From NCBI GenBank assembly GCA_024699235.1, contig JAILPY010000115.1:1-47027 (forward strand): a stretch of DNA of 47,027 nucleotides, read 5' to 3'. Of this stretch, positions 23,937 through 29,730 are shown in pieces. The notes beneath the pieces were generated by a model. The model did no database searches, had not been told where the DNA came from, and saw nothing but the letters and a program-made list of their open reading frames with translations. The first letter of the stretch is position 1, and every line of letters starts with the position of its first letter. The DNA comes from Treponema sp. (GTDB taxonomy: Bacteria; Spirochaetota; Spirochaetia; Treponematales; Treponemataceae). Made by a program: the position numbers and the translations under genes.

Positions 23937-25829
23937 ATGAATGAAGTCCGATATAATTGGCTTATGTCAGCAATGAAAGATATGTCAGTCCAGCAGTCAT
24001 TTATTTTTAATGTTAATCCAGAAAGTTTACATACGGCTGAGCCGGAAAAAATTCTTAAAGATGTTTTTGGCTATGATACATTCAGGCCTTTGCAGAAAGA
24101 AGTCATTCAGAATGTTCTTGACGGTAGGGATACTCTAGCCGTAATGCCGACCGGAGGCGGAAAATCTTTATGCTATGAAATTCCTGCTTTATTGATGGAT
24201 GGGCTGACGGTTGTCGTATCTCCTCTGATTGCACTTATGCAGGATCAGGTAGCTCAGCTTGAAGCTGTTGGAGTTCCTGCTGTATTTTTAAATTCATCCC
24301 TTGATTGGGATTCCTATGTAAGCGCCTGTGACAGAATAGTTTGCGGAGAAATCCGCCTACTGTATGTTTCTCCGGAAGGCTTGAATACAGAACGGATTCG
24401 TAATGTCCTGCATTCTTCAAATGTTTGCGTTCGGTGCATTACTATAGACGAAGCCCATTGCATAAGTGAATGGGGGCACGATTTCCGGCCTGACTATATG
24501 GAAATTGCTTCTGTACGGGAGCAGTTTCCTCAGGCCGTATGCCTTGCCCTTACTGCCACAGCAACGAAGGCCGTCCGCGATGATATTATCATGCAGCTTA
24601 AAATGGAAAATCCTGCCGTCCTTATAGCAAGCTTTAACAGGCCTAATCTTTTTCTGGAAGTTAAGATGAAAGCAAATCCTTCTGGCCAGGTTGAGTCTTT
24701 TCTAAATGAGCATAAGGATGAAAGCGGCATAATCTATTGCTTTTCCAGAAAACAGGTAGATGAACTGACCTCCCTTCTAAAATCCCGCGGATTCAATGCA
24801 GAAAGCTATCATGCCGGTCTTTCAGATGCTCAGCGTTATGAACATCAGCGGAATTTCATTAATGGTAAAGTTGAGATCATGGTGGCAACCGTTGCATTTG
24901 GCATGGGCATTAATAAGCCTGATGTTCGCTTCGTAATTCATTATGACATGCCTAAGTCTGTTGAGCAGTATTATCAGGAAATAGGGCGTGCGGGGCGTGA
25001 CGGGCTTCCTTCCCATGCCCTTCTGCTGTATTCTCTTGGCGACTTGCATAAAATACGTTTTTTCTTTACGGAAAAGGATAACCCTGCACAGGCCGAAAGG
25101 CTTTTACGGGGAATGATACGATATGCAGAGTGCAGGTCCTGCAGGAGAAAAGCCCTGCTTTCTTATTTTGGAGAAGTTTATGACGGCAAGCTGCCTGACA
25201 GTTGCTGCTGTGATGTATGCGCTGCAGGTCCCTTGCCGTTAGCTGACGTAACGATTCTTGCGCAGAAATTCATGTCGTGCATTTTAAGGACAAAAGAAAG
25301 GTATGGAGCGTCTTATGTCATTGATGTCTTGCTGGGAGCCAGAACTTCAAGGCTTCTTGAAAATGGACATGATTCATTGACTACTTTCGGCATAGGAAAG
25401 GAACTGACAAGAGAAAACTGGTTTGAGCTTAGTTCCACCCTTGCAAGCGAAGGTTATATTGAAAAGACAGATGATTATGGCATCTTATATTTAACTGAAT
25501 ATGGCAGAAAGGTTCTTTTTGAACGAGCGGAAATCAAGTTGCCTATTGAGTTTAAGAAACATGCATTAAAAAAATCTGCAGGCATAAAAACTTTGTCTTC
25601 GTCTGGATATGACAAGGATCTTGCCATGAAGATAAAGGCATGGCGGCGCAGAAAGGCAGATGAAGAAAATGTTGCCCCTTATGTTATTTTTGGCGACAGG
25701 ACTCTTATAGAAATAGCAAAGGCAAAGCCCCATAATATAGAAGAATTTATGCAGTGCTATGGAATAGGGCAGGCTAAGGCTCATAAGTACGGTCCTGCAA
25801 TCATACAGATTGTAGATTCCTCTTCTTAA
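23937..25829 (+). CDS. recQ: ATP-dependent DNA helicase RecQ
   Basis: A 3'-5' helicase of 630 residues for recombination and fork repair. Helicase motifs are complete: FRPLQKEVI (motif 0), MPTGGGKSLCYEIPAL (I), IDEAHCISEWGHDFRPDY (II plus the RecQ aromatic loop), LALTATAT (III), ATVAFGMGINKPDVRFVIH (V) and YYQEIGRAGRDG (VI). Four zinc cysteines (CRSCRRKALLSYFGE, CCDVC), the RQC winged helix and a C-terminal HRDC domain (VIFGDRTLIEIAKAKP) follow. A non-conserved extension of ~35 residues precedes motif 0. GAGG lies eight bases before ATG 23937. Confidence 0.93.
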   Translation: MNEVRYNWLMSAMKDMSVQQSFIFNVNPESLHTAEPEKILKDVFGYDTFRPLQKEVIQNVLDGRDTLAVMPTGGGKSLCYEIPALLMDGLTVVVSPLIALMQDQVAQLEAVGVPAVFLNSSLDWDSYVSACDRIVCGEIRLLYVSPEGLNTERIRNVLHSSNVCVRCITIDEAHCISEWGHDFRPDYMEIASVREQFPQAVCLALTATATKAVRDDIIMQLKMENPAVLIASFNRPNLFLEVKMKANPSGQVESFLNEHKDESGIIYCFSRKQVDELTSLLKSRGFNAESYHAGLSDAQRYEHQRNFINGKVEIMVATVAFGMGINKPDVRFVIHYDMPKSVEQYYQEIGRAGRDGLPSHALLLYSLGDLHKIRFFFTEKDNPAQAERLLRGMIRYAECRSCRRKALLSYFGEVYDGKLPDSCCCDVCAAGPLPLADVTILAQKFMSCILRTKERYGASYVIDVLLGARTSRLLENGHDSLTTFGIGKELTRENWFELSSTLASEGYIEKTDDYGILYLTEYGRKVLFERAEIKLPIEFKKHALKKSAGIKTLSSSGYDKDLAMKIKAWRRRKADEENVAPYVIFGDRTLIEIAKAKPHNIEEFMQCYGIGQAKAHKYGPAIIQIVDSSS

Positions 25830-25853
25830 AAATTGATATAAAATATCCTTCCC

Positions 25854-26010
25854 GGTTTTGCGACGCAACTCTATACGGTTTTGCGGCACAACTCTATACG
25901 GTTTTGCGGCGCAACTCTATACGGTTTTGCGACACAACTCTATACGGTTTTGCGGCGCAACTCTATATGGTTTTGCGACACAAATCTCTATGGTTTTTCT
26001 GCACAATTCT
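25854..26010 (+). repeat. 23-bp tandem repeat array (six full copies plus one degenerate)
   Basis: Units begin at 25854, 25877, 25900, 25923, 25946 and 25969, and a seventh diverged unit starts at 25992. Each runs GGTTTTGCG-R-C-R-CAACTCTATAC, with two purine positions that vary. The core TTGCG-R-CGCAA is a perfect dyad in copies 1, 3 and 5, and one or two positions differ in 2, 4 and 6. The 23-base period is not a multiple of three and every frame is an artefact of the repeat, so it is non-coding. There are no unique spacers, so it is not a CRISPR array. Confidence 0.95.
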
Positions 26011-26048
26011 TTAATTTCTCAAGATTTGTATTTTTTGTACGAATTTTT

Positions 26049-26092
26049 GGAAAAATAACATTTTTCTAAAGTTTGTGCAAAAATAATTTGAC
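26049..26092 (+). repeat. 44-bp direct repeat, left copy
   Basis: Identical over 44 bases to 28070-28113. It starts GGAAAAATAACATTTTTC and ends AATAATTTGAC. Contains the small palindrome AAAAAT-AAC-ATTTTT. In this copy the terminal TTGAC is not followed by a -10 element. Confidence 0.95.
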
Positions 26093-26093
26093 C

Positions 26094-26123
26094 ATTCATC
26101 CCAAAAATTCGACATTTATCCCA
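26094..26123 (+). promoter_or_regulatory. pair of 10-bp direct repeats at 20-bp spacing upstream of a promoter
   Basis: ATTCATCCCA (26094-26103) and ATTTATCCCA (26114-26123) recur at 20 bases, about two helical turns, immediately before the -35 box. This suggests binding of a regulator to one face of the DNA. Confidence 0.35.
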
Positions 26124-26129
26124 CTTTTG

Positions 26130-26157
26130 TTGACATTAAAAAATTATGAAATAGAAT
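26130..26157 (+). promoter_or_regulatory. promoter of the surface-lipoprotein gene
   Basis: TTGACA (26130-26135) and TAGAAT (26152-26157) are 16 bases apart. Confidence 0.6.
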
Positions 26158-26240
26158 GAAAACTGAAAATATGTAAAAGCAGACAAATGGAAATAAAGTT
26201 TGTCGTTTTTGAGAGTGTTTATAAAAAAGTGAGAATGCAT

Positions 26241-27992
26241 ATGAATAAGTTATTAAAGAATTTTTTTTATGGATTTGTACTCCTTGCCTTTATCATTACG
26301 GTTTGCCCTTTTCTCGTTTCATGTGCTGGCGGTGCTGGAGGAGGAAGTTCTGAAAGTGATTCCTCTGCTTTGTGCGTGCAGATGCCTTCAACGCGTTCCG
26401 TTCAGTACGATTTTTCTGATGTAGAAATTTTTACGGTAACAATAAGATCTTCTGTATATGATGAAACAAAGTCCTGCGGACAGGGTGAAACGCTGTTTTT
26501 TTCAGACGTCCCTGTAGGACACTATGAAATAACGGCCTTGGGTAAAAAATCAGACGGAACAGTGACAGCGAGTGGAACTGCTACTGTCGATGTTGAGTCA
26601 GGCGTAACAAAAAGCGTTTCTGTAAGGATTGTCAGGCTGAACCACCACACAGTATCCTTCCTTAATGAGGACGGTTCTGTCTATTCTAGCCAGGAGGTTT
26701 CAGATGGATACTGTGCAACGCAGCCTGATAATCCTGAATTTGCTGGTCATGACTTCTCTTTCTGGACTGTTGTAGAGTCAGCCGCTTCCACTGTCGATGG
26801 ATCGGCTTCTCCTTTCAGCTTTAATACAGAAATAACTGCTGATATAATGCTTAAACCTGTGTGTGATGTTATAACATATACCATTACATACGTATCAGTA
26901 CCAAAGGCTGTTGCCTCGGATACGTTTACCGTGGCAGGGCGTGAGACGTTGCCTTCTCCTTCAAAGTCAGGACTGACGTTTGTAGGTTGGTATGAGGACG
27001 AGGAATTTACAGGTTCCAAGATTGAGTCAATTCCAGAAGGAACGACAGGAAACATGACCCTTTATGCAAAGTGGACTGTAAAGGTCACGTTTAATGCGCT
27101 TAACAATAATTCTACAGAACGGAATGTAGTTTATGGAGGAACAGTTGCACAGTCTTCAGAACCTACAAAGAGCAATTATGCGTTTGTAGGATGGTACAAG
27201 GGCTCTATGGGAACAGGCAATGCCGTTACGTATGAATCCGAATCCTATGACTTTGACACTCCTGTTACTTCAAGTTTTACTCTGTATGCAAAATGGCTTT
27301 ACTCAAATGCCAGTTTTACGGGAACAGTGGCAGAATTCCTTGCAACAGAATTCTGTCCTAATACTTCTCCTGATAGTTCTTATTCAGTAACGATAACCTC
27401 TGCTACAGCTGATCAGATTGCAAATATTGCAAGAGCTATAGGAAACTCTTCAGATTCCAATTATAAGGGAGTGTACATAACTCTTGATCTGTCAGGTTGT
27501 GGTGCAACAGAAATACCTTACGGAGCTTTCTGGAGTGGCACGTATGCTGGTACAGGTATTGCTACATACCTTACGGGCATTGTCCTGCCGAGTGGATTGG
27601 AATCTATAGGATCTAATGCATTTAATGGCTGTAGTGGCATTACGGGAAGAATTACTATTCCAAGCAATGTTAGAGAAATGGGAGATGACGTCTTTAATTC
27701 CTGTACAGGAATTACCGAAGTTACCATAGAAGATGGTGTAACGAAAATAGGTACGTACGCATTTAAAGGGTGTACAGGTATTTCAAGTCCTGTTACTATT
27801 CCTGATACTGTAACGGAAATTTATGCTGGGTCATTTTATGAATGTACTTATATACCTTCCATAAGCGTAACCGGAAAATGGGATAAATATTGGTATGATG
27901 ATATGGACAACAAACGAGCTGAGTCTATCGATCTTACTAGGGATTTGCTTGTGGTTGAGAGTGGTTACCGTTATTTCCGTAATCAAGAATAA
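26241..27992 (+). CDS. surface lipoprotein with InlB-type repeats and BspA-like leucine-rich repeats
   Basis: A 583-residue exported lipoprotein; lipobox LVSC puts the lipidated cysteine at residue 28, followed by a glycine/serine linker. A beta-sandwich-like region (~40-150) precedes Listeria-Bacteroides (InlB B-type) repeats, each ending in GWY...LYAKW (TFVGWYEDEEF...MTLYAKW, AFVGWYKGS...FTLYAKW). The last ~170 residues are BspA/LRR_5-type leucine-rich repeats (LESIGSNAFNGCSGIT, TKIGTYAFKGCTGIS). Such proteins bind host or plant surfaces in oral and gut treponemes. The start at 26241 follows GAGA; 26235 is an alternative. A strong terminator follows, so the gene is a self-contained unit between 44-bp repeats. 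Confidence 0.85.
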   Translation: MNKLLKNFFYGFVLLAFIITVCPFLVSCAGGAGGGSSESDSSALCVQMPSTRSVQYDFSDVEIFTVTIRSSVYDETKSCGQGETLFFSDVPVGHYEITALGKKSDGTVTASGTATVDVESGVTKSVSVRIVRLNHHTVSFLNEDGSVYSSQEVSDGYCATQPDNPEFAGHDFSFWTVVESAASTVDGSASPFSFNTEITADIMLKPVCDVITYTITYVSVPKAVASDTFTVAGRETLPSPSKSGLTFVGWYEDEEFTGSKIESIPEGTTGNMTLYAKWTVKVTFNALNNNSTERNVVYGGTVAQSSEPTKSNYAFVGWYKGSMGTGNAVTYESESYDFDTPVTSSFTLYAKWLYSNASFTGTVAEFLATEFCPNTSPDSSYSVTITSATADQIANIARAIGNSSDSNYKGVYITLDLSGCGATEIPYGAFWSGTYAGTGIATYLTGIVLPSGLESIGSNAFNGCSGITGRITIPSNVREMGDDVFNSCTGITEVTIEDGVTKIGTYAFKGCTGISSPVTIPDTVTEIYAGSFYECTYIPSISVTGKWDKYWYDDMDNKRAESIDLTRDLLVVESGYRYFRNQE

Positions 27993-28023
27993 ATAAGTTT
28001 TACTCTGTTTTAAATCATTCTGT

Positions 28024-28051
28024 AAAAAACCGCCGGGCAGGCGGTTTTTTT
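28024..28051 (+). terminator. terminator after the surface-lipoprotein gene
   Basis: CCGCC (28030-28034) and GGCGG (28040-28044) pair around GGGCA, flanked by an A run and a T run that extend the stem. Confidence 0.9.
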
Positions 28052-28069
28052 ATGCTGTTCTTTACTGCA

Positions 28070-28113
28070 GGAAAAATAACATTTTTCTAAAGTTTGTGCA
28101 AAAATAATTTGAC
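28070..28113 (+). repeat. 44-bp direct repeat, right copy, forming the upstream part of the xylB promoter
   Basis: Identical to 26049-26092. Its last bases supply most of the -35 box TTGACG, and its A/T-rich body sits where an UP element would be. Confidence 0.95.
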
Positions 28114-28136
28114 GAATTGTAAATATTTTGTATAAT
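28109..28136 (+). promoter_or_regulatory. xylB operon promoter
   Basis: TTGACG (28109-28114) and a consensus TATAAT (28131-28136) are 16 bases apart. Confidence 0.75.
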
Positions 28137-28145
28137 AGTACTGAT

Positions 28146-28161
28146 AGGCAATCGGTTGCCT
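28146..28161. promoter_or_regulatory. LacI-type operator dyad at the xylB transcription start
   Basis: AGGCAA-TCGG-TTGCCT is a perfect six-base dyad with a central CG, the layout of LacI/GalR-family operators. It starts about nine bases past the -10 box, where a bound repressor would block initiation. A small 5' hairpin is the alternative reading. Confidence 0.5.
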
Positions 28162-28206
28162 GTTGCTTATGTTTGAGAGTAACTTCTAATAGAGAGGATA
28201 TAAGAA

Positions 28207-29730
28207 ATGGCATATCTCATCGGCGTTGATTTGGGAACAAGTGGTACAAAAACTGTAATTTTTGACGAACAGGGAAATCCTTTGGCATCAAAGACTATTG
28301 AATACCCTATGTATCAGCCTCATAACGGCTGGGCAGAACAGGATCCTTTAGACTGGTATCATGCAGCTTGCGGCAGTATGAAAGATGTCGTTGCAAAGAG
28401 TGGCGTTAATCCTAAGGACATCAAGGGAATTGGCATTAGCGGCCAGATGCACGGCCTTGTAATGCTTGATAAAGACGGAAACGTCCTTCGCAAGAGCATT
28501 ATATGGTGCGACCAGCGTACTGCAAGAGAATGTGAAGAAATAACTTCAAAAGTCGGTGCCCAGCGCCTTATTGAAATTACTGCTAATCCTGCCCTTACAG
28601 GCTTTACTGCAAGTAAGATTATGTGGGTAAAGAACAACGAGCCTGATGTGTATGCAAAATGCGCTCATATCCTTCTTCCTAAAGATTATGTCCGCTATAT
28701 GCTTACGGGCGAGTTTGCAACGGAAGTCAGCGATGCAAGCGGAATGCAGCTCCTTGACGTTCCTAACCGCTGTTGGTCTGATGAAGTATTGACAAAGCTT
28801 GATATTGATAAATCACTTCTTGCAAAGGTTTATGAATCTCCAGAAGTGACAGGAAAGGTAACGAAGAAGGCGTCCGAGCTTACAGGTGTACCAGAGGGAA
28901 CTCCTGTTGTTGGCGGTGCAGGCGATAACGCAGCAGCTGCTGTAGGAACTGGTACCGTAGAAGATGGCATTGCATTTACTACAATTGGAACAAGCGGAGT
29001 TGTTTTTGCACATACAAGCAAAGTCAGCATCGATCCTAAAGGCCGCGTCCATACATTCTGCTGTGCCGTTCCTGGTGCATGGCATGTAATGGGCGTTACG
29101 CAGGCTGCAGGACTTTCCCTGAAATGGTTCAGGGACAATTTCTGTCACGACGAAATGATTGCTGCTGACGGAATGGGCAAAGATCCTTACTTTATCATGG
29201 ATAAGCAGGCTGAGCGCATCCCTATCGGTGCAGACAGGCTTTTGTACCTGCCATACCTTATGGGCGAAAGAACCCCTCATCTTGATCCTGACTGTCGCGG
29301 CGTATTCTTTGGTCTTTCTGCAATGCACACAAGGCAGCATTTGCTTAGGGCCGTAATGGAAGGCGTTACTTACAGCCAGCGCGATTCTATTGAAGTATTG
29401 CGCAGCATGGGCGTAAAGATTAATGACATGCTTGCTTGCGGCGGCGGCGGTTCAAGTTCTTTGTGGCGTCAGATGCTTGCTGATGTTTATAACTGTCCTG
29501 TAAAGACTGTTGTAAGTAAAGAAGGCCCTGCACTTGGTGTTGCAATTCTTGCTGGCGTTGGTACAGGAATTTATAAGAGCGTAGCTGAAGGATGTCATGC
29601 AGTTATCAAGACTAATGAACCTCAGAAGCCTATAAAGGAAAACAGTGCGCAGTATGAAAAATTCTATAAGCTGTACACTCAGCTGTATCCTGCATTGAAA
29701 GACTGCTATAAAAATCTGGCAACTGTGTAA
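28207..29730 (+). CDS. xylB: xylulokinase
   Basis: Phosphorylates D-xylulose to D-xylulose 5-phosphate with ATP, feeding the pentose-phosphate route. It is a 507-residue FGGY-family kinase. The N-terminal ATP-binding phosphate loop is GVDLGTSGTKTVIFDEQG; GWAEQDPLDWY and GISGQMHGLVMLD are xylulokinase features. The C-terminal domain has TIGTSGVVFAH, MEGVTYSQRDSIEVL and the family block ACGGGGSSSLWRQMLADVY. AGAGAGGA precedes the ATG. It is first in an operon with a DUF4867 gene and a FucI-like isomerase gene. Related ketoses such as ribulose or fuculose are possible substrates. Confidence 0.9.
   Translation: MAYLIGVDLGTSGTKTVIFDEQGNPLASKTIEYPMYQPHNGWAEQDPLDWYHAACGSMKDVVAKSGVNPKDIKGIGISGQMHGLVMLDKDGNVLRKSIIWCDQRTARECEEITSKVGAQRLIEITANPALTGFTASKIMWVKNNEPDVYAKCAHILLPKDYVRYMLTGEFATEVSDASGMQLLDVPNRCWSDEVLTKLDIDKSLLAKVYESPEVTGKVTKKASELTGVPEGTPVVGGAGDNAAAAVGTGTVEDGIAFTTIGTSGVVFAHTSKVSIDPKGRVHTFCCAVPGAWHVMGVTQAAGLSLKWFRDNFCHDEMIAADGMGKDPYFIMDKQAERIPIGADRLLYLPYLMGERTPHLDPDCRGVFFGLSAMHTRQHLLRAVMEGVTYSQRDSIEVLRSMGVKINDMLACGGGGSSSLWRQMLADVYNCPVKTVVSKEGPALGVAILAGVGTGIYKSVAEGCHAVIKTNEPQKPIKENSAQYEKFYKLYTQLYPALKDCYKNLATV

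Follow-up and report, generated by a model that had tools for sequence, protein, structure and literature searches.

A surface-lipoprotein gene between 44-bp direct repeats beside xylB in Treponema: a probable insertion with long target duplication

Organisation of the recQ-xylB interval

The window analysed here, a 47,027-nucleotide stretch of Treponema sp. DNA, is contig C166 of a draft metagenome-assembled genome of 2.8 Mb in 210 contigs (G000). Between recQ and an intact xylB it carries a surface lipoprotein gene enclosed by two copies of a 44-bp sequence, the 44-mer (Table 1). The DNA between the copies (26093-28069, 1977 bp) runs from promoter to terminator and encodes a lipoprotein whose length is 583-601 aa according to the start codon chosen. 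No recombinase or transposase ORF was found in this insert, and the inverted-repeat pairs detected within 25000-29500 do not bound it, so that it does not have the build of a transposon or insertion sequence. The initial annotation had described a gene with its own promoter and terminator between identical direct repeats, the right copy forming part of a working xylB promoter and the left copy ending in the same TTGAC with no -10 behind it. All of these points were borne out.

Table 1. Features of the recQ-xylB interval (window coordinates).
Feature	Position	Strand	Remarks
recQ, left neighbour	23937..25829	+	Pfam DEAD, Helicase_C, RecQ_Zn_bind, RQC, HRDC
23-bp tandem array, 6.9 copies	25853..26010	no strand	between recQ and left 44-mer
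Left 44-mer (duplicate)	26049..26092	+	ends TTTGAC, no -10 after it; away from xylB, absent in relatives
LytTR-type site, box 1 (ACCATTCAT)	26091..26099	+	first two bases belong to left 44-mer
LytTR-type site, box 2 (GACATTTAT)	26111..26119	+	11 bp past box 1, 10 bp ahead of -35
Lipoprotein promoter, TTGACA-16-TAGAAT	26130..26157	+	
Surface lipoprotein gene	26241..27992	+	ORF open from 26187; signal peptide, VSCAGG lipobox, three Flg_new, LRR_5
Intrinsic terminator hairpin of lipoprotein gene	28024..28050	+	-15.7 kcal/mol
Right 44-mer (native)	28070..28113	+	contains TTGAC of xylB -35; single copy, same place, in L042 and L043
xylB promoter, TTGACG-16-TATAAT	28109..28136	+	TTGACG 28109-28114, 16 bp spacer, TATAAT 28131-28136; conserved in L042 and L043
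xylB (xylulokinase), intact	28207..29730	+	TIGR01312 XylB, 575 bits (cut-off 380)

Two further features were observed on either side. The tandem array behind recQ is of the GCGRCRCAACTCTATACGGTTTT type; like arrays occur on contigs C145, C188 and C118 of the same genome and diverged relatives of it in G060 and G059, the genomes of two related species. A palindrome in the xylB leader, TAGGCAATCGGTTGCCT (28142-28165), is nearly identical at the two related xylB loci, L042 and L043, and resembles an operator of the LacI-family kind.

The 44-mer is confined to this locus and to xylB of two relatives

The two copies are identical at 44/44 bases and their starts lie 2021 bp apart. No exact direct repeat in the window is longer, and every other one that reaches 20 bp falls within the 23-bp tandem array, which leaves the 44-mer as the sole non-tandem case. 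With up to three mismatches allowed, the 44-mer matched twice in the whole genome (reversed control, 0), which rejects a dispersed repeat. The initial annotation had named many unrelated copies as an observation that would speak against a cassette, and had suggested looking for further cassettes with this 44-mer at their ends; neither was found in the genome, these two copies being the total.

Relatives were Treponema metagenome-assembled genomes found by way of xylB, and all three genomes compared are draft assemblies. G059 and G090 were counted as one genome, as were G060 and G061, since their contig coordinates agree; L042 lies in G090 and L043 in G061. A pattern covering 32 bases of the 44-mer, searched with up to three mismatches in 196 genomes of the genus, occurred in three of them: twice in the window genome, once each in G090 and G061, and in none of the other 193. 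Both single copies lie directly upstream of the xylB -35, in the same place as the right copy of the window. The xylB promoter is near-identical to that of the window, the leader differs, and the alignment with the window, followed from xylB leftwards, ends at the left boundary of the right 44-mer or a little way into it. No lipoprotein gene is present at the xylB edge in L042 or L043; the gene upstream of xylB is a PDDEXK_2 gene in L043 and an ORF with no Pfam match in L042. As both close relatives hold one copy at xylB and no lipoprotein there, the right copy of the window is taken as native and the left copy as the duplicate.

The 44-mer could in principle be a dispersed or convergent regulatory element, that is, a binding site common to two promoters, and its AT-richness, its position upstream of a -35 and its conservation before xylB in three species would suit such a role. 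However, a binding site of this kind would hardly be identical at every base and limited to two copies in the genome even with three mismatches, nor absent everywhere else in the relatives, and we consider this explanation extremely improbable.

A more distant species (L048, with the matching locus L036) has the order recQ, a gene that reads as MarR-like, xylB, with neither lipoprotein nor 44-mer. The recQ-xylB order is therefore older than the insert. Against an insertion stands that an exact empty site, with recQ, one 44-mer and xylB in succession, was not found. In both G059 and G060 recQ and xylB lie on separate contigs; the right flank is joined to the single copy in both relatives, and the left flank is rearranged. 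A likeness of the left flank to the region upstream of xylB in the relatives appeared suggestive against plain shuffles (5/300) and was dropped after dinucleotide shuffles, 37/500 and 236/500 of which scored as high when anchored at the 44-mer.

The lipoprotein has no orthologue in the close relatives

A search with the N-terminal 207 aa of the lipoprotein gave matches at 29 places, spread over all three genomes (the window genome and the two relatives). Weak or partial matches were excluded and 21 of the 29 were taken into a tree, 17 of these 21 also being used in an alignment. The window lipoprotein sits on a long separate branch (0.67 changes per column), and among these 21 members from three genomes it has no orthologue in either relative. 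The situation that the initial annotation had set against an insertion, in which the relatives possess the gene and lack the repeats, was not encountered. Among the matches listed, every one that scored better than 1e-30 against the family profile came from the three genomes; weaker matches occur elsewhere, with 93 of 192 genomes having any match at 1e-8. Both the family and its LytTR-type site (see below) are specific to the three-species group.

This specificity bears on whether the locus might be an assembly artefact, fragments of two strains having been joined through an overlap of 44 bp. Two points would suit such an error: the genome is a draft in 210 contigs, and 44 bp is shorter than a read. 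Against this, two false junctions would be required, both on a 44-mer absent elsewhere, and the cargo belongs to a family and carries a site specific to the group. An artefact is very unlikely.

A different history would make the lipoprotein an old resident between recQ and xylB, in front of which 44 bp of the xylB edge were copied later by template switching or gene conversion. In G060, the sister species, recQ is indeed followed at a distance of about 1.1 kb by a family lipoprotein gene, and the end of that contig has 16 nt in common with the start of the xylB contig. However, that lipoprotein is the orthologue of a gene on C29 of G059 (100/98 support) and not of the window gene, it has neither LytTR-type site nor 44-mer, and the 16-nt overlap is weak and lies within a multicopy repeat, for which reason it was not relied upon. 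We regard a resident gene as unlikely. A non-orthologous family lipoprotein behind recQ in G060 is compatible with turnover of such genes, and is no proof of it.

Repeat-flanked genes elsewhere in the group

For 82 ORFs of at least 280 aa in the fetched stretches of the three genomes, the longest exact repeat shared by the 900-bp flanks was determined. It measured 8-14 bp for 80 of them, and the two outliers were the window lipoprotein gene (44 bp) and a second lipoprotein of the family, on C223 of G060 (41 bp). Genes with short flanks (<900 bp, or <250 bp), G060:C238 included, were left out of the flank tests. With inexact matching and 3-kb flanks, repeats were found at 3/17 family genes and at 3/86 others, figures in which two of the three family genes represent one tsaD locus in two species and one of the three others also lies at that tsaD locus. 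In other species of the genus (40 stretches), the counts were 2/37 for family genes and 5/99 for others, and these matches look like tandem paralogues or arrays, judging by their positions. Most family genes thus have no such repeats, there is no general enrichment, and the idea that direct repeats mark the lipoprotein family as a whole finds no support in the counts from beyond the three-species group.

At the second outlier (L237:151-3385), the lipoprotein gene has an intact tsaD on one side and, on the other, a 387-bp duplicate of the tsaD 3' end at 84% identity. In G059:C48, two remnants of the tsaD fragment precede the orthologue of this lipoprotein, one of them beginning at the same boundary, and the intact tsaD is found beyond a gene whose G060 counterpart carries an AlbA_2 domain. 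Identity to G059 is 94% over the G060 fragment and the AlbA_2 gene next to it; in G060 itself the intact tsaD contains a diverged patch (70-83%) beside the duplicated part. The locus has undergone rearrangement, and two histories can produce its layout: acquisition from a diverged donor, and an old tandem duplication that was later rearranged. A third locus has unrelated cargo: in G059:C3:16424-17716, a 430-aa gene lies between 69-bp copies at 97% identity, the upstream one reading as the 3' end of a neighbouring gene. The 430-aa product itself reads as ATPase-like. A PDDEXK_2 gene in G059:C4 with 74-bp flanks at 84% was set aside, the repeat being multicopy.

Repeat length therefore differs between the three loci (44, 69 and 387 bp), unlike a fixed attachment site or target site duplication. 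This weighs upon a further explanation, that of an active site-specific element, non-autonomous and served by an integrase in trans, with the 44-mers as its attachment sites. Exact repeats around a promoter-to-terminator unit that leaves its neighbour intact are what such an element would produce. The repeats at the other loci differ in sequence as well as length, though, the 44-mer has no further copies in the genome, the insert has no recombinase, and a 30-base piece had no exact match in viral contigs, which likewise rejects a phage-borne copy of the 44-mer. A site-specific element is highly improbable here.

A probable insertion with long target duplication

We consider it likely that a single gene was inserted and that 44 bp at the edge of the xylB promoter were duplicated in the process, as an insertion with long target duplication. 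This kind of insertion was reportedly described by Nobusato, Uchiyama, Ohashi and Kobayashi in 2000 for restriction-modification genes of Helicobacter pylori. The window gene has long direct repeats on both sides (44 bp, 100% identity), the repeat is single in the uninserted relatives G059/G090 and G060/G061, and repeat length varies between loci as given above. The same arrangement, in which a gene has at its two ends long direct repeats that vary in length and occur singly in an uninserted relative, is treated as a pattern of gene mobility for the H. pylori genes in two papers (PMC1643837, PMC3031569). The present case differs in its cargo, a surface lipoprotein in place of a restriction-modification gene, and in that no empty site was seen at strain level, the comparison covering one genome per species. 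A limited search for literature linking long target duplication with spirochetes found none on this subject, the one match concerning Haloferax. The finding is a known type of scar, and a novel instance of it with a surface lipoprotein as cargo.

In the proposed sequence of steps, the lipoprotein cassette would have entered the recQ-xylB interval right at the upstream border of the xylB promoter, and 44 bp of this border would have been duplicated. The left copy would thereby have lost its -10, and now just precedes the LytTR-type site and promoter of the lipoprotein; xylB still has a full promoter because it kept the copy joined to its -10. The likely mechanism would be recombination in which the incoming DNA brought with it the edge of the neighbouring gene. 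This would account for both the duplicated edge and the intact neighbour, and the route may have been a circle entering by one crossover within the 44 bp, or a homology-assisted insertion. In homology-facilitated illegitimate recombination (illegitimate recombination assisted by homology), as outlined in PMC2884548, a homologous edge of the incoming DNA pairs and the other end is joined illegitimately; there, the process accounts for replaced segments, and its extension to a directly duplicated edge is our own suggestion.

We infer a single event and an outside origin of the DNA, and suppose that the insert could leave by recombination between the copies. A RecA threshold near 30 bp is given for E. 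coli in the same paper (PMC2884548), so that repeats of 44 bp might in principle be long enough for the cassette to be lost. The initial annotation had proposed an insertion with duplication of the promoter edge, and a cassette that may be lost or swapped. The insertion stands as the best reading, given single-copy relatives with no lipoprotein at that place and a second family lipoprotein of like layout; loss and swapping are kept here as possibilities.

Such a single-gene insertion leaves a datable scar and a working neighbour.

A LytTR-type site and a possible surface-protein regulon

The insert starts with ACCATTCAT, 11 bp, GACATTTAT, 10 bp and TTGACA, with the first two bases supplied by the 44-mer. 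According to PMC6193735, LytTR sites consist of a pair of 9-bp direct repeats separated by 11-13 bp, and the distance from the site to the -35 is strongly biased to 10 bp. The geometry of the window site (11 and 10 bp) is like that of the sites of Streptococcus mutans LRS and Treponema denticola AtcR. The 29-bp pattern of the site, with the boxes ACCRTTCAT and GACRTTYAT, had 22 occurrences at up to three mismatches, in three of 196 genomes (seven in G000, 13 in G090 and two in G061; reversed controls, 0). Box spacing was set by the search pattern, and TTG or TAG stood exactly 10 bp downstream of the site in 18/22. Taking the longest ORF starting within 450 bp as the gene after the site, some sites being near contig ends, we read a family-type lipoprotein gene downstream of 15/22, a PnrA-like operon downstream of 2/22, and other or unclear genes downstream of 5/22. 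Of the 22 stretches, three that held no stop codon were left out.

LytTR genes number two in G000, one in G059 and one in G060. In G000 (C21:14694-16655) and in G059 (C44:13749-15730), the site separates two divergent units, a REC-LytTR gene on one side and on the other an operon that starts with a PnrA-like lipoprotein gene (Pfam Bmp in G000) and in G000 continues with a gene for a hybrid histidine kinase. Linkage of the site to the REC-LytTR gene suggests LytTR regulation of the site-bearing lipoprotein genes, and the regulator encoded at these two loci is probably the controller of the lipoprotein regulon. The present system differs from known LytTR sites in its box sequences and in a regulator gene that adjoins a PnrA-like and hybrid histidine kinase operon. 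A 2025 paper (PMC12070737) describes AtcR as the sole spirochete protein of the LytTR kind; three more Treponema genomes have LytTR genes here.

It is a speculative and distinctly unlikely extension that surface-lipoprotein genes of this group are self-sufficient cassettes, each comprising LytTR-type site, promoter, gene and terminator, which integrate beside housekeeping genes by duplicating an edge and excise by means of it. If it were true, the surface proteins would form a rotating set that is under one regulator wherever a member lands. The site ties the inserted gene to a putative regulon of surface lipoproteins, and it is this regulon that a single 29-bp pattern could predict. Borrelia changes its surface through gene conversion from silent cassettes; were cassettes exchanged between strains, gut treponemes would change theirs in a different manner.

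A minor variation of the site was seen on G061:C133 (L205), where a partial third ATTCATCCC box lies ahead of the -35.
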